The translations under genes and the position numbers were made by a program. Source: a virus. From it: a DNA stretch of 51,090 nt. The stretch lies in IMG/VR virus record IMGVR_UViG_3300021079_000012, positions 1-51,090 of that record, one strand, 5' to 3'. Positions within the stretch are counted from its first letter, which is position 1; each line of letters opens with the position of its first letter. Below the pieces are notes generated by a model. That model did not search any database, was not told the origin of the DNA, and worked only from the letters and a program-made list of their open reading frames with translations. Shown here piece after piece: positions 3 through 40,060 of the stretch.

Positions 3-167
3 TTTGAGGCGTCTCTATATAAACATTGGACAGAAGAATTTAACTCAAGACGAGTGTTTTTAAGTTTTGGTTTTATAGTTCCATATAGTGTGGTTGGAAG
101 AACGGAAAACGACCCAAGAGTTAGATTAAGTCAACGGATATCAAAATATTTTCAAAAACTTAGTTGA
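3..167 (+). CDS. C-terminal end of an unidentified protein (partial)
   Basis: An open frame runs from the left edge to a TGA at 165-167, giving 54 residues of a C-terminus. It is basic and aromatic (it includes SFGFIVPYSVVGR and ends ISKYFQKLS). The residue composition and the gap that follows look like a genuine gene end rather than a random frame. I do not recognise the family, and the start lies outside the window. The next gene, DNA polymerase, follows on the same strand after 87 nt. Confidence 0.55.
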   Translation, partial: FEASLYKHWTEEFNSRRVFLSFGFIVPYSVVGRTENDPRVRLSQRISKYFQKLS

Positions 168-187
168 TATAAAACAAAACAAAAACT

Positions 188-195
188 ATATTTAT
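188..195 (+). promoter_or_regulatory. Late-type motif ATATTTAT upstream of DNA polymerase
   Basis: ATATTTAT lies 59 nt before the GTG start of the polymerase gene, farther than at most virion genes. It could be a weak promoter with a long leader, or chance in AT-rich DNA. Confidence 0.25.
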
Positions 196-254: not shown

Positions 255-3047
255 GTGATTAGTCAAGAAGAAATTAAATCGTTCCTAGAAGGGAACGACC
301 CTGAAGAGCACATCGTTGCCATTGAGTTTGATTACCTAACGGACTCAATTTATAAAATCAAAGAAATTCCTGGGAAAGGAAAAGAAATACGTAAAGATAC
401 TTTTACCCCATTTGCGTGGGTTGGTGATTTACGTGGTTTAAATTTTTATCAATCATCAAAAGGTCTTCAGAAAGAGGCCATGTCCAAACATGGAATTATG
501 ATTGAGAAATTAGAGACCAAAGGTAATGACAGATTAGAACAAGGATTAAAATATATTGTCAAATGTTTAAAAGGTTATCGACAATTAATCCAATTTTTTA
601 GAGAGGGTGGGGTAGACCCATGGGGAGAAAACACCAAAGACAAGATTATGATTCTACCTCCTGTAGAACAATATCTAATTTCAAGAGAGAAACGTTTATT
701 TAAAGGATATGAAGAATACAATGACATCACTCGATTTGTATTCGACTTAGAGACGACCGCGTTAGAACCAAAAGACGGTCGTATATTCATGATAGGAATT
801 AAAACTAATAAAGGTTATCAGAAAGTTATTGAGTGTTCGGATGAGGATGAGGAACGCAGAGGTTTGGTTGAATTCTTTAGAATTATTGATGAATTAAAAC
901 CAAGTATTATTGGTGGGTACAATTCGGCAAACTTCGATTGGTTTTGGATATTGGAGAGGTGTAAGGCACTTCATTTAGACATTAAAAAAATCTGTCATAC
1001 CTTAAATCCAAAACAAAATTTAAGACAGAGCGAAAATATGTTAAAACTTGCCAATGAGGTTGAGAGATACAATCAAGTTGGTATTTGGGGTTATAATGTA
1101 ATTGATATTATTCACTCTGTAAGACGAGCTCAAGCAATTAATTCGGGTATTAAGTCTGCGGGTTTGAAGTACATTACTCAGTACATTAAAGCCGAGGCCC
1201 CTGACCGTGTATATATATCCCATGAAGAGATTGGGTCAATGTATAAGGATAAAAATGAATATTGGTTAAATGTTAAAAACGGTAAATACAAAAGAGCGGA
1301 TAAACCCGAATTCAATGATTTAGATACTCGATTTCCTGGAACTTATATTAAAGTTACGGGAGATAATATTGTAGAGAGATATCTTGACGATGACTTAGAG
1401 GAAACATTATTGGTCGATGACGAGTTTAATCAAGGAACTTTTCTATTGGCTTCATTAGTACCAACAACTTACGAAAGAGTTTCAACAATGGGAACTGCGA
1501 CATTATGGCGGATGATTATGTTAGCATGGTCATATAAACATAAATTGGCAATTCCAAAAAAAGAACAAAAAACCGATTTTGTAGGAGGATTATCAAGACT
1601 ACTTAAAGTTGGATATTCAAGAAACGTATTAAAACTCGATTACTCATCACTATATCCAGCAATTCAATTAACCCACGATGTGTTCCCTAAGTGTGATGTA
1701 ATGGGGGCGATGAAAGGATTATTGGCGTACTTCCGTAATTCTCGTATTACGTATAAAAATTTAGCGTCGGAATACAAAGACATCGATTCTAAAAAATCAT
1801 TAACATACGACCGTAAACAACTCCCAATTAAGATTTTCATCAACTCATTATTTGGTGGTTTAAGTGCTCCTCACGTTTATGCTTGGGGAGAAATGAACAT
1901 TGGAGAACAGATTACCTGCACTGGTAGACAATATCTTCGACAAATGGTTAAATTTTTTATGAAAAGAGGTTACACCCCTTTAGTTCTTGATACAGATGGT
2001 GTCAATTTTAGTTTACCCGAAGGAGGTGTTGACGACAGAGTTTATATCGGTAAAGGGATAAATTGGTTGGTTAAAGAGGGTAAGGAATACAGAGGTTACT
2101 ATGCCGACACCGCAGAATATAATGATTTATTTATGAAAAATAGTATGGGGTTAGATTGCGATGGAGTTTGGGAATCTTGTATTAATTTAAGTAGAAAGAA
2201 TTACGCAACAATGGAATCCAATGGTAAAATTAAATTAACAGGAAATTCCATTAAATCTAAAAAACTTCCATTATATATTGAGGTGTTTTTAGATAAAGGA
2301 ATTAAGTTATTATTAGAGGGTAAGGGCCAAGAATTTATTGAATGGTATTATGAATACGTACAAAAAATTTATGAAAAAGATATTCCGTTAAAACAGATTG
2401 CTCAAAGAGCTAAAGTTAAACTATCCTTAGATGATTATAAAAAAAGATGTACTCAAACAACTAAAGCAGGGTCATTAATGTCACGTATGTGTCATTTAGA
2501 ATTGGCGATAATTCATAAATTAAATGTTAAGTTAGGGGACGTTATTATGTATGTTAATAATGGAACTAAAGCATCGCAAGGAGATGTTCAAAAGGTAAAT
2601 AAACTTAAAAAGGGATGGAGTACTGAACAACTTCAATATCACTTTGATATGTATGGGGGTTACCCTAAGGAATCCGATACCTCAATGATTCAAATTAATA
2701 GTTATATGTTAAACACAAATGATATTGAAAATAATCCTGATATGAGAGGAGAATATAATGTACCAAGAGCGATTGTGACATTTAATAAACGAATTGAGCC
2801 TCTTTTAATTGTATTTAAAGAAGAGATTAGAAACAATCTAATTGTTAATAATCCTGAAGACAGGTCTTTTTTTACTAAAGAACAATGTGAAATGATTAAT
2901 GGAATACCGTTTAAAGAAAGTGACCAAGACACTGTCAAAGATTTATTAACTATCACTGATTTAGAGTTAAAGTTTTGGGATAGGGTTGGTATTAGTCCAA
3001 ACTATATTTATGAATTGGCGGAAACTGGGTGGGAAGAGTTTGTTTAA
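255..3047 (+). CDS. 43: Family B replicative DNA polymerase (T4 gp43-like)
   Basis: This is the replicative polymerase with 3'-5' proofreading, 930 residues (T4 gp43 is about 900). The exonuclease domain shows Exo I FDLETT (D164, E166) and Exo II YNSANFD near residue 225. The polymerase domain shows motif A LDYSSLYP near 460, motif B with NSLFGG near 530, and motif C DTDG near 580, so both active sites look intact. The start is GTG at 255: an in-frame TAA lies at 246-248, only two codons separate it from the GTG, and no ATG is near. Its stop overlaps the stop of a convergent gene by a few bases (TTAA). It lies beside neck genes instead of within the replication block at 32-39 kb. Confidence 0.97.
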   Translation: MISQEEIKSFLEGNDPEEHIVAIEFDYLTDSIYKIKEIPGKGKEIRKDTFTPFAWVGDLRGLNFYQSSKGLQKEAMSKHGIMIEKLETKGNDRLEQGLKYIVKCLKGYRQLIQFFREGGVDPWGENTKDKIMILPPVEQYLISREKRLFKGYEEYNDITRFVFDLETTALEPKDGRIFMIGIKTNKGYQKVIECSDEDEERRGLVEFFRIIDELKPSIIGGYNSANFDWFWILERCKALHLDIKKICHTLNPKQNLRQSENMLKLANEVERYNQVGIWGYNVIDIIHSVRRAQAINSGIKSAGLKYITQYIKAEAPDRVYISHEEIGSMYKDKNEYWLNVKNGKYKRADKPEFNDLDTRFPGTYIKVTGDNIVERYLDDDLEETLLVDDEFNQGTFLLASLVPTTYERVSTMGTATLWRMIMLAWSYKHKLAIPKKEQKTDFVGGLSRLLKVGYSRNVLKLDYSSLYPAIQLTHDVFPKCDVMGAMKGLLAYFRNSRITYKNLASEYKDIDSKKSLTYDRKQLPIKIFINSLFGGLSAPHVYAWGEMNIGEQITCTGRQYLRQMVKFFMKRGYTPLVLDTDGVNFSLPEGGVDDRVYIGKGINWLVKEGKEYRGYYADTAEYNDLFMKNSMGLDCDGVWESCINLSRKNYATMESNGKIKLTGNSIKSKKLPLYIEVFLDKGIKLLLEGKGQEFIEWYYEYVQKIYEKDIPLKQIAQRAKVKLSLDDYKKRCTQTTKAGSLMSRMCHLELAIIHKLNVKLGDVIMYVNNGTKASQGDVQKVNKLKKGWSTEQLQYHFDMYGGYPKESDTSMIQINSYMLNTNDIENNPDMRGEYNVPRAIVTFNKRIEPLLIVFKEEIRNNLIVNNPEDRSFFTKEQCEMINGIPFKESDQDTVKDLLTITDLELKFWDRVGISPNYIYELAETGWEEFV

Positions 3048-4539: not shown

Positions 4540-4547
4540 ATAAATAT
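4540..4547 (-). promoter_or_regulatory. Late-type promoter motif for gp13-like gene
   Basis: Read on the minus strand the sequence is GATATTTATATATAAACAC, placing ATATTTAT 15 nt before the ATG. Spacing and orientation match the motif before plus-strand virion genes, although the gene is on the opposite strand. Confidence 0.5.
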
Positions 4548-6085
4548 CAATTTAATGTATAAATTAACGACTCTTCAGGGAAAACATAAACTCCACGAGT
4601 TATCTTCACTTTTTTATTATTGAAAATTAAAACTTCTTTATTTTTTTTGGTGAAAGCCATCCAATCGGTAGAGTATTTTTTAACTTGTCCAGAGTCTAAA
4701 ACAATAATTTTACCGTCTTCTTGTTTGATTCTACTGAACGGTTTTATTTGAACTGTATTTGTTTTACCGTCAACAGTTACTTTACAATCGATTCCTCCAA
4801 TCATGTCCTCTTTGTTCCCTAACTCTCCAATTTGTTCTACATTGTCGTCTCCAAATTGTTTCTTTAACAAAACAACCGAATAATCTTCGGTTTTACTTCC
4901 TATGTCGTGAGTAATTCCTAACGTCGCCATTAAATTTTGAAATGTCCCTGAGTGAGGAGTAAAAATTCTTGACTTATATTCGTCCAACATTTTAACAAAT
5001 TTTTTGGTTTCACTAATTTGTTCAAAAGGTTTTAACCCAATAATTTTAATTTCGGGATTACCTTCATGAACCATAACTTTGTTAATATCCGTTAACAAAA
5101 TACAAAAACAAGTATAGTTGGTATTGAGTTTATTAATCACCGACCTGCCCTCTGTTTCTAAATCATAGATGCCCGACATTTGGTCGTCACCATATTCGTT
5201 TTGACCATAATAGTTATCAGGATAAATTTCTTGTAGTATCTTTTCAATACCGTGTCTAAAAGTATTTTTAACTTTCGGATTAATGTTAAAAACAAATCTT
5301 ATCGCCTCATTCATATCTCTACCACATTTTTCTGATTTACCCTCAGATAAAACTTCTCGTAATAAAACGGTTTCATCCATTTTTTTCTTTAATCTCATCC
5401 CCAATAATTGATTCACAAACTTCCAATTAACACACTTCCAAAAATTCTGAATATATTCATCTTTCTTATTTCTGTATTTTAAATAATAGGCGTGTTCCCA
5501 TAAGTCTAATCCTAAAACAGGGTAACCCCCATTCTCAACAACATTCATTAATGGGTTATCCTGATTTGGTGTTGAGACAATCTTTAGGGTATTACGATTA
5601 GTTAAAACTAACCAAACCCATCCTGAACCAAATCGGTCTTTACAAACCTCCTCAAATTTAATTTTAAATTTTTGAAATGTTCCGAAGTCTTTCTTTATCT
5701 TATCTAAGATATCACCATTTGGTGTTTGTGTCTTTGGGGACAACATTTTCCAAAATAATGCGTGGTTAAACGCCCCACCTGCATTATTTCTAATTGTTTT
5801 ATCGTACTTACCAATTGATTTGATAATGTCTTCTAACTCTAAATCACCATAGTCTTTTTTTGATAATGCGGAATTTAATTTGTCAACGTAACCTTTATAA
5901 TGTTTGTTATAATGGTACTCCATTGTTTCCGCGTCAATAAACTGTTTAAGGGATGAATAGGCGTAAGGTAATTTTTCAATTCCTATTTTTTTCATTTCAG
6001 TCAAAAAAAGTTTTTGGTTGTCTTTTTTTTCCTCTACGATTAACTGTTCTGTAATTATGTTAATCTTTTCTTGTATTTTTTTCAT
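4547..6085 (-). CDS. Fe/Mn superoxide dismutase fused to a C-terminal PD-(D/E)XK-like domain
   Basis: A 512-residue fusion. Residues about 39-228 are a complete iron/manganese superoxide dismutase: metal ligands H58 (EYHYNKHYKGYV), H108 (FNHALFW), D194 and H198 (DLWEHAYY) are all present, with active-site Tyr66. GG before NH and Gln175 in NQDNP point to the Mn or cambialistic type. Predicted reaction: dismutation of superoxide to peroxide and oxygen. Residues 1-38 are extra, with ITE and LTE sites like those cut by T4 prohead protease. The remaining ~280 residues are not SOD; near 440-470 GGIDCKV followed by NTVQIKP resembles the D...(E/Q)xK core of PD-(D/E)XK nucleases, with a possible helix glutamate upstream. 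The gene sits between an SNF2 helicase and the gp13-like neck gene. The SOD assignment is firm; the nuclease reading is inference. Confidence 0.92.
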   Translation of the reverse strand: MKKIQEKINIITEQLIVEEKKDNQKLFLTEMKKIGIEKLPYAYSSLKQFIDAETMEYHYNKHYKGYVDKLNSALSKKDYGDLELEDIIKSIGKYDKTIRNNAGGAFNHALFWKMLSPKTQTPNGDILDKIKKDFGTFQKFKIKFEEVCKDRFGSGWVWLVLTNRNTLKIVSTPNQDNPLMNVVENGGYPVLGLDLWEHAYYLKYRNKKDEYIQNFWKCVNWKFVNQLLGMRLKKKMDETVLLREVLSEGKSEKCGRDMNEAIRFVFNINPKVKNTFRHGIEKILQEIYPDNYYGQNEYGDDQMSGIYDLETEGRSVINKLNTNYTCFCILLTDINKVMVHEGNPEIKIIGLKPFEQISETKKFVKMLDEYKSRIFTPHSGTFQNLMATLGITHDIGSKTEDYSVVLLKKQFGDDNVEQIGELGNKEDMIGGIDCKVTVDGKTNTVQIKPFSRIKQEDGKIIVLDSGQVKKYSTDWMAFTKKNKEVLIFNNKKVKITRGVYVFPEESLIYTLN

Positions 6086-6102
6086 ATTATATAAATATGA
6101 AA
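6080..6102 (-). promoter_or_regulatory. Hairpin enclosing the SOD-fusion start codon
   Basis: A perfect 8-bp stem (TTTCATAT / ATATGAAA) with a 7-nt loop lies right after the SNF2 stop. The SOD ATG is in the 3' arm. Transcripts entering from SNF2 would fold over the start; transcripts starting near it would not. No U-run follows on the minus strand, so it is probably not a terminator. Confidence 0.5.
6091..6098 (-). promoter_or_regulatory. Late-type promoter motif for SOD-fusion gene
   Basis: On the minus strand ATATTTAT ends only 5 nt before the ATG and overlaps the hairpin loop. If it is a -10 element, the transcript would begin at or very near the start codon (leaderless or nearly so). Confidence 0.45.
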
Positions 6103-14862: not shown

Positions 14863-14931
14863 CTAGAAAACTTATACTAGAAAGATTAAAATAAAAAAAA
14901 ACAAAGTAAAGAGAAAATTTTTTATCTCGAT

Positions 14932-14939
14932 ATATTTAT
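14932..14939 (+). promoter_or_regulatory. Late-type promoter motif for tail tube
   Basis: TATATTTATAATAAAATAAA precedes the tube ATG by 34 nt, with a long A-rich leader (repeated ACAAA). This is the fullest copy of the motif. Confidence 0.6.
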
Positions 14940-14973: not shown

Positions 14974-15462
14974 ATGGCTGATTTACTAATGAAAATGCCG
15001 ATTCCTTACGAACCGAAAAGACAAAACAGGTTCATTCTTCGTTTCCCTTCTACTTTGGGAATTAACGAATGGTTCGTAGAATCAACATCAAGACCACATA
15101 TAACAATTACTCCAGTTGAAATCCCGTTCCTAAATACATCAACGTATGTAGCAGGTCGTTTCACTTGGGGAACAATAAACGCTAAATTCCGTGACCCAAT
15201 CGGACCTTCAGCGTCACAAGCTCTTATGGAGTGGGTACGTTTATGTGCCGAGTCTGTAACAGGTCGTATGGGATATGCCGCGGGTTATAAGAAAAATATT
15301 GACCTTGAGATGTTAGACCCTACAGGAGTTGTTGTGGAAAAATGGATTATGGAGGGAAGTTGGTTATCTGACGTTAACTTTGATTCATTAGCATATAATA
15401 CTGACGCAATTGCGAGTATTACTGCCACGATTCGTATGGACCGTTGTATATTAGTTTATTGA
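14974..15462 (+). CDS. 19: Tail tube protein (T4 gp19-like)
   Basis: The tail tube subunit, 162 residues, nearly the same as T4 gp19 (163). The fold order is visible: N-terminal strand (RQNRFILRFP), a P-V-E-I-P-F-x-N segment, a GRFTWGTINAKFRD strand, the helix SQALMEWVRLCAE, GYKKNIDLEMLDP, and the final EGSWLSDVNFDSLAY followed by ITATIRMD. These match the gp19/Hcp-type tube layout. It is expected to stack hexameric rings on the baseplate up to the length set by the tape measure. It has its own late-type promoter and is followed by a strong terminator that overlaps the start of a homing endonuclease. Confidence 0.95.
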   Translation: MADLLMKMPIPYEPKRQNRFILRFPSTLGINEWFVESTSRPHITITPVEIPFLNTSTYVAGRFTWGTINAKFRDPIGPSASQALMEWVRLCAESVTGRMGYAAGYKKNIDLEMLDPTGVVVEKWIMEGSWLSDVNFDSLAYNTDAIASITATIRMDRCILVY

Positions 15463-15504
15463 TTTTTAACTATTAAAATACATCGATTCATTGACAATAT
15501 TGTG

Positions 15505-15542
15505 AAATTCCTATATATTTATTTATATGGGAATTTTTTTTT
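15505..15542 (+). terminator. Terminator hairpin after tail tube that hides the endonuclease start
   Basis: A 13-bp stem (15505-15517 with 15524-15536, one G-U pair) with a 6-nt loop TTTATT, followed by at least six T: a strong intrinsic terminator for the tube transcript. The ATG of the next gene (15527) is in the 3' arm, and the late-type motif crosses the loop. Read-through mRNA would have the start codon sequestered. Confidence 0.8.
15515..15522 (+). promoter_or_regulatory. Late-type motif for the homing endonuclease gene
   Basis: ATATTTAT ends 4 nt before the ATG and lies across the loop of the tube terminator. A transcript starting here would lack the 5' arm of the hairpin and leave the start codon open. 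Confidence 0.45.
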
Positions 15543-16417
15543 GTAAAATATGTCAAAAAGAATGTGAGGGTTTAAACTCTTTAAGGTCACATTCTATTCA
15601 GAAACATAATATTTCTTCAGAACAAATTTATATTGATTATGTTTTAAATGGTGTTAAACCTACTTGTGAATGTGGGTGTGGAAAAACGACAAAATTTTTG
15701 TCGGTAGGAAGAGGATATTCTAAATTTATACAATCTCACCACAATAGAGTTCCTGGTAAAAATAATTTTCATAAAAATCCTAACACACATCAAAAGGCAA
15801 TTGAAACTCAAAAGAAAAATTGGAAAGAAGGTAAGTATGTTGGTTGGTGGGAAAATAAAACACCTGAAACATTAGAAAAAATTGAGGGAATTAAAGAAAA
15901 ATTACGTAATGATAAAGAAAGGGGTAAAAAAATTTCTAAAAAATTAAAAGGAGTTCCTAAAACTGAGATATCCAAAATAAAAAATTCAAAATCTCAAAAA
16001 ATAAGATATAAGAATAACCCTAAATTAAAAGAAGATGCGTCCATTAGAAGAATAAAATGGTTAAAATCTAACTTATCTAATAAAAAGAGTAAATTAGAAT
16101 CCAAATTTGAGACCATTTTAAACCTACTTAATATTAACTACGAATTTCAACACGAGTTTCAAAAAAGGTTATTCGACTTTAAAATTAAAGATAAAAATAT
16201 ACTAATAGAAGTTGACGGAGATTTTTATCACTGTAACCCTAATACAAAACATTCGGAAGTTTTGTACGAAACACAATCACTTACAAAAAAAAATGATAAC
16301 TATAAAAATACCTTATGTCAAAACCACGGAATGATATTACTTCGTTATTGGGAAAAAGATATTAATGAAAGACCTGAGTGGATAATATCTGAACTAAAAA
16401 AAGAATTATCTTTATAA
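15527..16417 (+). CDS. Free-standing homing endonuclease (Vsr/EDxHD-like)
   Basis: A 296-residue protein. An N-terminal C2H2-type finger (C6, C9, H22, H27) is followed by a second Cys cluster (CECGCGKTTKF). Then come a lysine-rich DNA-binding linker with NUMOD-like repeats (residues about 85-190) and a C-terminal nuclease domain (about 195-296). The nuclease shows SKLESKFE, FDFKIKDKNILIEVDGDFYH and a final ILLRYWEKDI, as in Vsr-like PD-(D/E)XK homing enzymes. It probably cuts unmarked relatives at this site and spreads by recombination. It sits between tube and gp26-like genes, a typical intergenic position. The start is fixed by the zinc finger beginning six residues in. Confidence 0.88.
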   Translation: MGIFFCKICQKECEGLNSLRSHSIQKHNISSEQIYIDYVLNGVKPTCECGCGKTTKFLSVGRGYSKFIQSHHNRVPGKNNFHKNPNTHQKAIETQKKNWKEGKYVGWWENKTPETLEKIEGIKEKLRNDKERGKKISKKLKGVPKTEISKIKNSKSQKIRYKNNPKLKEDASIRRIKWLKSNLSNKKSKLESKFETILNLLNINYEFQHEFQKRLFDFKIKDKNILIEVDGDFYHCNPNTKHSEVLYETQSLTKKNDNYKNTLCQNHGMILLRYWEKDINERPEWIISELKKELSL

Positions 16418-16434: not shown

Positions 16435-16442
16435 TTATTTAT
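16435..16442 (+). promoter_or_regulatory. Late-type promoter motif for gp26-like gene
   Basis: TTATTTATAATAAAA lies 17 nt before the ATG at 16460. The next late operon starts here, independent of the endonuclease. Confidence 0.5.
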
Positions 16443-16459
16443 AATAAAAACAATTCAAT

Positions 16460-17218
16460 ATGGAACAAGACTTAATTAAAGCGGGAACCGAAGGGTTTAA
16501 CTTACCTCATGATGTTGTAACCCTACCTTCAGGTGGGATATACTACAAATCTAAAAAGAAATCAATTAAAGTGGGTTATTTAACCGCAAATGACGAAAAC
16601 ATCTTAATTGGTGCCGCTCAAAACGCAAATACCAACATTATTTTAACATTACTTAGAAGTAAAATTTACGAAAGTGAATTAAGACCTGAGGAGCTTTTAA
16701 ATGGTGATGTTGAGGCGATTATGATTTATTTAAGAAATACTTCTTTTGGTCCTGAATATGTTGTTAATTTGATTGACCCCAAAACAAGTAAATCGTTTAA
16801 CTCAACAATTATTTTAGACGAATTAAATATTAAACAAACTCAATCTAAACCTGATGAAAATGGGTTATTCTTAACGACACTACCTAAATCAGGTTCAACG
16901 GTTAAATTAAAACCGTTAACTTACTCTGAAATTTTGGAATTAGGTAAATTAGGTGACCAATACCCTGCAGGTCGAGTTGCTCCAACAGTTACATGGAGAT
17001 TAAATAAACAAATTCAGGAGGTTGACGGAATTACAGATAAAGGACAAATTGCGGTGTTTATTGAGTCTTTACCAATTATGGATTCTAAATTCATTCGTAA
17101 CTTCATGAGAGATAACGAACCGTCATTAGACCTAAGAAGAACAACAAACGCCCCATCAGGAGAACTGGTATCTTTCGAGATAACCTTTGGGGTGGAGTTC
17201 TTTCGGCCTTTCTTCTAA
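16460..17218 (+). CDS. 26: Baseplate hub assembly protein (T4 gp26-like); tail chaperone candidate
   Basis: A 252-residue protein of the T4 gp26 type (208 residues in T4). The opening (LPHDVVTLPSGGIYYKSKK, then a strand and TANDENIL) and the helical middle (LLRSKIYESELRPEELLNGD, then MIYLRNTSFGPEY) are the pattern I associate with phage baseplate gp26 and with tail chaperones. The end (ITFGVEFFRPFF) runs into an overlapping frame that continues to 17360, just before the tape measure. In other tailed phages this position is held by a frameshifted chaperone pair. Both roles are plausible: gp26/gp51-type hub assembly, or a chaperone holding the tape measure. Confidence 0.75.
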   Translation: MEQDLIKAGTEGFNLPHDVVTLPSGGIYYKSKKKSIKVGYLTANDENILIGAAQNANTNIILTLLRSKIYESELRPEELLNGDVEAIMIYLRNTSFGPEYVVNLIDPKTSKSFNSTIILDELNIKQTQSKPDENGLFLTTLPKSGSTVKLKPLTYSEILELGKLGDQYPAGRVAPTVTWRLNKQIQEVDGITDKGQIAVFIESLPIMDSKFIRNFMRDNEPSLDLRRTTNAPSGELVSFEITFGVEFFRPFF

Positions 17219-32411: not shown

Positions 32412-32440
32412 TTGACAAAACAAAGGCTGACACTTATACT
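32412..32440 (+). promoter_or_regulatory. Consensus-like promoter TTGACA-N17-TATACT for gp32
   Basis: TTGACA at 32412-32417 and TATACT at 32435-32440 are separated by exactly 17 nt. The ATG of gp32 is 26 nt downstream and there is no late-type motif. The TTTG at 32411-32414 with TATACTTA can also be read as a degenerate Bacteroidota promoter (TTTG, about 20 nt, TAnnTTTG). It is probably used early or middle by host RNA polymerase. Confidence 0.6.
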
Positions 32441-32466
32441 TATTAAACAATTAAAACTTAAATTAT

Positions 32467-39591: not shown

Positions 39592-39599
39592 ATATTTAT
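39592..39599 (+). promoter_or_regulatory. Late-type motif (proximal) before gp25
   Basis: ATATTTATA ends 5 nt before the ATG at 39605. Two copies in 35 nt may act in tandem; from the proximal copy the mRNA would have almost no leader. Confidence 0.4.
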
Positions 39600-39604
39600 A
39601 GTAT

Positions 39605-40060
39605 ATGGCAGAAGGAAAAACATATGGAGTTAACTTCCCTTTTAGAGATTCTTTAAAAGGTAATTATCTTTCTTTATCACAAGATGGTGATGAAGAGGTT
39701 AGGGCAAACTTAATTCATTTATTATTAACTAGAAAAGGTACAAGATATTATTTACCTGATTTTGGAACAAGACTTTATGAATATATTTTTGAACCTATGG
39801 ATGGTCCAACATTTTCAGATATTGAGGCGGAAATAAGAGACTCGGTTTCTGAATATATCCCAGGAATCACTATAACAAAACTAAGTGTAACTGCCGCGTC
39901 TGATGGAGAGGAAGATAAAGGAACTTATGTTCAAGGAGACGTAAGAGTTTATCGAGTTCCTGGTATAAGTGAGAAAGAACATACCGCTAAAATTAAAATT
40001 GATTATATAATTACAGATTCGGCATTTAATCAGAGTGATTTCGTAATCATTAATATTTAA
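39605..40060 (+). CDS. 25: Baseplate wedge protein (T4 gp25-like)
   Basis: A 151-residue protein of the gp25/GpW family (T4 gp25 is 132). Signatures: the N-terminal strand VNFPFRDS, helix VRANLIHLLLTRKGTRYYLP, DFGTRLYEYIFEP, the helix IEAEIRDSVSEYIPGI and closing strands. In T4 it begins sheath assembly on the baseplate wedge. It precedes gp6 as in many contractile systems. After the replication-block terminator it opens the second tail operon, with two late-type motifs close upstream. Confidence 0.93.
   Translation: MAEGKTYGVNFPFRDSLKGNYLSLSQDGDEEVRANLIHLLLTRKGTRYYLPDFGTRLYEYIFEPMDGPTFSDIEAEIRDSVSEYIPGITITKLSVTAASDGEEDKGTYVQGDVRVYRVPGISEKEHTAKIKIDYIITDSAFNQSDFVIINI

Follow-up and report, generated by a model that had tools for sequence, protein, structure and literature searches.

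The window (the whole 51,090-nt stretch of DNA that was analysed) derives from an uncultured T4-like phage, as a fragment of 51 kb, and carries genes for sheath, tail tube, baseplate, a gp25-like protein, DNA polymerase, SSB, recombinase, helicase and ribonucleotide reductase. No DNA match to it was found among 50,697 phage records and no Rfam family was found in it; comparison by tail tube puts a Microcystis phage, Rhodothermus RM378 and Flavobacterium phages among the closest cultured phages (33–42% identity). The host is likely one of the Bacteroidetes, because TAnnTTTG, the Bacteroidetes promoter consensus (PMC6847099), stands at early-type genes of a related 162-kb record (L237). Leaders in the window phage are A-rich and without Shine-Dalgarno (SD) sites. 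Elsewhere in the window, a 512-aa ORF on the minus strand (4547–6085) contains complete N- and C-terminal domains of Fe/Mn superoxide dismutase.

At the locus studied here, with all features on the plus strand, the gp19-like tail tube gene (14974–15462; PHROG 4542, E 7e-25; Pfam Phage_T4_gp19 match below cut-off) is preceded by a late-type (structural) promoter, TATATTTAT at 14931–14939, which has no -35 element and a replication-minus-late score of -27.5. A putative free-standing homing-type endonuclease gene (15527–16417, 296 aa) follows, and then a T4-type baseplate gene (16460–17218; Pfam T4_baseplate, 9.5e-9) whose late-type promoter, TATTTAT at 16436–16442, is intact despite the insertion.

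Two endonuclease families behind the tail tube

The window endonuclease (family 1) has an N-terminal CxxC zinc finger and a C-terminal DUF559/Vsr-like region; it matches PHROGs 559 and 9084, and its DUF559 match is weak (E 9e-4, below Pfam's cut-off). We found 70 relatives in viral contigs. The tail tube gene precedes every family-1 copy tested, and relatives down to 51% identity keep the arrangement. Among the 50,697 cultured-phage records family 1 has no close relative, the two matches covering 30% of the length at 34% identity. Other alleles carry behind the tail tube a 526-aa Hef-like endonuclease (family 2; PHROG 3339 homing endonuclease, 3e-115) with the N-terminus MDFSFF..., and distant family-2 relatives also have the TAnnTTTG box. 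Family 2 is of the same gene type as the Hef-like free-standing phage homing endonucleases; family 1 resembles, more weakly, the DUF559/Vsr-like ones, and differs from the known Hef/DUF559-type genes in its zinc finger and in having no close cultured-phage relative.

A given site may be occupied by a free-standing phage homing endonuclease in one phage and empty in a related one; at this site, too, both occupied and empty alleles were found among the 260 alleles compared. An allele with 98% tail-tube identity (L002) has the hairpin described below and both neighbours but lacks the ORF. L006 was considered as a further remnant, for which we found no proof. In five alleles (L008, L031, L042, L066 and L077) a short zinc-finger-like ORF (GYTCNRCGKVF...) starts directly after the tail-tube hairpin, at the same site.

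A hairpin that contains the endonuclease start codon

Behind the tail tube gene lies a hairpin with a 13-bp stem (5' arm 15505–15517, 3' arm 15524–15536), one additional G-U pair (15504/15537) and the loop TTTATT (15518–15523). Folding of 15490–15560 gives an MFE of -19.7 (z = -4.7; 0/200 shuffles as good), and the hairpin folded alone has -14.1 kcal/mol. The endonuclease ATG (15527–15529) lies inside the 3' arm, and codons 2–5 make up the rest of the arm and a U-run (15534–15542) that encodes I3-F4-F5. A stem-loop directly followed by a U-run has the form of an intrinsic terminator; because the window stem has just two G-C pairs, a simple terminator scan misses it.

The layout is kept in all family-1 relatives found (31 unique, 22 of them in the counted alignment). 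These relatives come from metagenomes and share descent, so that the counts are not independent events; with this proviso, 97.6% of stem cells are paired across the 22 distinct aligned sequences, and three stem pairs have changed on both sides (0/500 shuffles match; slid controls 22–65%). Stem variants in family 1 include GGGAATT/AATTCCC, GGGAAATT/AATTTCCC and GGAATT/AATTCC. Family 2 has a different stem sequence in the same layout (AATCCATATATTTAT...ATGGATT), with the variants GGATT/AATCC, GGAATT/AATTCC and GGACT/AGTCC; GGAAC is also compensated. When 3' arms were shuffled among sequences, the observed pairing was reached in 0/2000 trials in either family. The fold and the covariation thus bear out the original prediction of a hairpin behind the tail tube with the endonuclease ATG in its 3' arm.

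The compensatory changes reach coding bases in codons 2–3, and these codons are constrained at the level of the base. Where codon 2 specifies glycine it is GGA in 34 of 34 cases, compared with 32% of the Gly codons elsewhere in the gene, and isoleucine at codon 3 is ATT in 35/35 genes as against 54% elsewhere.

A strong hairpin with a T-run lies just 3' of the tail tube in 241 of the 260 unique alleles, whether or not an endonuclease is present, and the U-run is found in every endonuclease allele listed. In L173–L175, what precedes family 2 is a family-1 gene or its remnant, and family 2 retains its own hairpin and promoter; on this arrangement, we assign the hairpin element to the endonuclease unit and do not regard it as merely the terminator of the tail tube.

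Promoter classes and the proposed promoter in the loop

Structural genes of the window's phage group have TATTTAT at 12–23 or 31–44 nt upstream of the ATG, and TAAAA frequently comes after it. TATTTATA was counted 107 times near starts against 7 times far from them. TATTTAT is clearly the structural-gene promoter core of the group, and only 10% of structural promoters read TATATTTAT. We found no literature on late promoters of Bacteroidetes or far-T4 phages. At the gp25-like gene and another gene (39592–39607; 6085–6098, minus strand), TATTTAT lies just 5 nt before the ATG, which suggests that leaderless late mRNAs exist in the window phage.

Three copies of a bipartite motif, TTGAYW-N17-TATAYTTA, are present in the window, where 0.02 would be expected: one precedes the DNA polymerase gene (TTGATA-N17-TATATTTAT, 164–195, plus strand), one the SSB gene (TTGACA-N17-TATACTTAT, 32412–32443, plus strand) and one the endonuclease. 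By comparison, DNA polymerase genes of relatives have TTGACT/A-N17-TATA(T/C)TTAT (23/36 strict) and their SSB genes TTTGACA-N17-TATACTT. In 29 large related records TTGACW-N17-TATAYTTA has 21 matches, against one for the reversed control; most of these stand before DNA polymerase, SSB, NUDIX, DnaK-like and methyltransferase-like genes, and some before small lipoproteins (the NUDIX, DnaK-like, methyltransferase and lipoprotein labels were judged from the sequences). With TAnnTTTG included, there seem to be three promoter classes in the group. At an HNH endonuclease gene elsewhere in a related phage (L240), this bipartite promoter stands 5 nt upstream of the ATG, together with a weaker hairpin. 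Besides its promoter, the DNA polymerase gene (255–3047, GTG start) has upstream (187–240) a small hairpin, AAGGTAAATGCCGA..TCGGTAGC, that is conserved in 53 unique relatives and resembles a gp43-type translational operator.

At the endonuclease, the -10 element TATATTTAT (15514–15522; hexamer TATATT, 15514–15519) begins in the 5' arm and reaches into the loop, exactly 17 nt downstream of the -35-like element TTGACA (15491–15496). The shorter motif to which the original prediction had drawn attention, ATATTTAT (15515–15522), crosses into the loop as part of this -10; it was rejected as evidence when taken alone, with 14 copies in the window against 11 expected by chance. The predicted sharing of one hairpin by terminator, -10 and endonuclease start agrees with the fold, the U-run and the conserved -10. 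The extent first given, 15505–15542, covers stem, loop and U-run correctly and leaves out the -35, which belongs to the feature. Two other leads were rejected: the host-type box TAnnTTTG does not fit the loop, which has A and not G at the last position, and a collection-wide scan for TTTACA-N17-TATATTTAT gave mostly chance matches outside the window's phage group.

TATATTTAT is exact in 28/31 family-1 and 40/43 family-2 sequences, those with long loops included, and the spacing of 16–17 to the -35 is common to the two families, which have different sequence blocks. A strict -35 is missing in about half of family 1. Of the 83 alleles counted as ORF-intact, 65 contain TATATTTAT within the hairpin, compared with 2/169 without the ORF, and ATATTTAT in the loop accompanies the presence of the endonuclease. 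The -10 differs in some intact alleles, for example TATATATAT or TATATTTAC, and is TATATTTG in distant family-2 relatives. ORF-less alleles often retain the stem with an altered motif (TATATTAAT in L002 and L173/L174/L383; TATATTATC in L011). A strict rule that the motif is lost with the ORF, as L002, L173/L174 and L011 had suggested, is contradicted by L382 and L460, in which the ORF is absent and the motif retained; what holds is a tendency only.

TTKAC 16–18 nt upstream separates the classes: it is found at 0/120 structural promoters, 23/36 DNA polymerase, 15/28 family-1 and 29/37 family-2 promoters. On a two-class score the window promoter reaches 8.7, above all 129 late promoters, and the endonuclease promoters as a group (median +2.1) are intermediate, since their -10 suits either class; the sites for DNA polymerase and SSB were selected by best match, which inflates their score. 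TATATTTAT also satisfies the late -10, TATTTAT, while the -35 fits the replication class only. The loop promoter probably belongs to the DNA polymerase/SSB (replication) class. Its earlier label as late-type is doubtful, since it has a -35 at 17 nt and structural promoters are -35-less. None of the endonucleases was seen with the TATACTTAT form that is frequent at DNA polymerase and SSB.

Proposed control of endonuclease expression

From the -10 geometry, transcription is predicted to start at 15525–15527, with a leader of 0–2 nt in family 1 and of about 14–21 nt in most family-2 copies; the prediction draws on the spacing in F. johnsoniae, where transcription starts 4–5 nt after the -7 box (PMC6847099), and on sigma-70 and T4 late promoter geometry. 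In F. johnsoniae, however, 87% of leaders are longer than 10 nt and leaderless mRNA is uncommon (PMC6847099). The predicted probability that the window AUG is unpaired is 0.00 in read-through RNA and 0.91 in RNA started in the loop. Among relatives, read-through RNA has an AUG with predicted unpaired probability <0.2 in 23/23 family-1 and 37/38 family-2 sequences, and the medians for loop-start RNA are 0.54 (family 1) and 0.65 (family 2). That upstream mRNA would hide the ATG and loop-start RNA expose it, as had been proposed, is in line with this predicted pairing (about 100% versus low).

From the hairpin and its covariation, the conserved motifs, the similarity to a promoter class and the recurrence in two endonuclease families, we infer how termination, start site, timing and a block to translation may be combined. 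RNA from the late-type tail tube promoter would fold at the element into an intrinsic terminator, and in any RNA that reads through, the endonuclease AUG would be locked in the stem and untranslatable. As DNA, the -35 upstream of the stem and the -10 reaching into the loop would form a promoter, and RNA started in the loop would lack the 5' arm, so that the hairpin could not refold and the AUG would be exposed for translation. Because the promoter class is that of DNA polymerase and SSB, the endonuclease would most likely be made alongside the replication proteins and be excluded from the abundant late tail-tube transcript. A compact control element behind the tail tube, with terminator, AUG lock and replication-class promoter, is the best explanation overall, and we hold it with somewhat better than even confidence.

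In T4, transcripts from upstream of I-TevI (td intron), I-TevII, I-TevIII and segB form a hairpin that hides the start, and a promoter inside or beside the hairpin yields RNA without the 5' arm (PMC2988022; PMC3014915). The same logic applied here, with a late promoter in the loop and the hairpin silencing the endonuclease until late, could appeal to this precedent (PMC2988022), to the structural core TATTTAT in the loop and to the absence of the TATACTTAT form, which fits a need for TATTTAT. We nevertheless consider it distinctly unlikely, as the -35 seen at both endonuclease families occurs at none of the 120 late promoters, the downstream TAAAA of late promoters is missing in family 1, and the upstream gene is already late-type, so a late switch would add no timing. 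A T4-like block on early transcripts meets the same difficulty: behind a late-type tube gene, the hairpin would block late ones. A dual promoter, read by a replication-period polymerase through the -35 and TATATTTAT and by a late polymerase through TATTTAT, would give expression in both periods; TATATTTAT is indeed the overlap of TATAYTTAT and TATTTAT, and across the two endonuclease families it hardly varies (68/74), being kept more strictly there than at DNA polymerase or SSB. Needs of the loop or stem may instead keep T at the variable position, however, and we regard this reading as unlikely.

It is also conceivable, though to us quite improbable, that the hairpin is nothing but the tail tube's own terminator, with a fortuitous ORF start and promoter-like bases that are an AT-rich coincidence or an operator for I-TevI-like autorepression. 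The presence of the hairpin in alleles without an endonuclease would agree with this, as would the blocks CCATTTACAATATTG and CCTTTACAACCAAAAT, whose conservation extends beyond a -35 and which might serve as binding sites. Yet TATATTTAT is retained in long-loop variants in which pairing does not require it, the spacing of 16–17 is alike in families with different blocks, and the hairpin accompanies family 2 behind other genes.

The combined element that we favour shares with the T4 I-TevI group, as the original prediction had recognized, a genuine resemblance: the start is predicted to be sequestered in upstream RNA, and the promoter is placed so that its RNA would lack the 5' arm (PMC2988022). 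In the T4 group the SD is hidden, the upstream RNA is early or middle and the promoter late; in the window the AUG itself is hidden with no SD before it, the upstream RNA is that of the tail tube with its structural-type promoter, the loop promoter resembles the replication class, and the hairpin runs out into a terminator U-run. Since the upstream unit is itself late, protecting the endonuclease from late transcription, with the tail tube keeping its terminator, is a likelier role for the hairpin than a T4-like delay; the anatomy is like that of I-TevI, with the timing logic probably reversed. Start-site hairpins and 5'-ORF terminators were already known: mobE of Aeromonas phage Aeh1 has a start-site hairpin, and T4 mobE and segF have intrinsic terminators in the 5' end of the endonuclease ORF that limit expression (PMC2988022). 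The T4 terminators lie inside the ORF without a promoter of their own, whereas in the window terminator, -10 and start codon share one stem-loop.

Recurrence in two endonuclease families supports the earlier suggestion of convergent or conserved control. We put at about even the chance that the two families converged on a coding terminator hairpin overlapping start codon and replication-class promoter, with expression from leaderless or short-leader mRNA during the replication period, late shut-off and thus the timing of I-TevI reversed. Selfish nuclease genes need enough expression to spread without harm to the phage, for which T4 combines hairpins at the start site with late promoters. That uncultured T4-like phages only distantly related to it show this anatomy in two nuclease families, with a promoter of replication type and lacking a ribosome-binding site, suggests that the fusion of terminator, promoter and start codon has been a solution more than once and that its timing can be reversed. 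The comparison also allows two promoter classes of an abundant uncultured phage group to be defined by sequence.

In another clade, which lacks the endonuclease (L039–L063), the 0–95 nt behind the tail tube hold a terminator immediately followed by the baseplate ATG, and TATATTTA extends over the beginning of the terminator's 5' arm (TTATATTTAACCGTAAAG...CTTTACGGTTAATTTTTTATATGG). By its motifs, this element is a terminator-promoter fusion for a structural gene, that of the baseplate.
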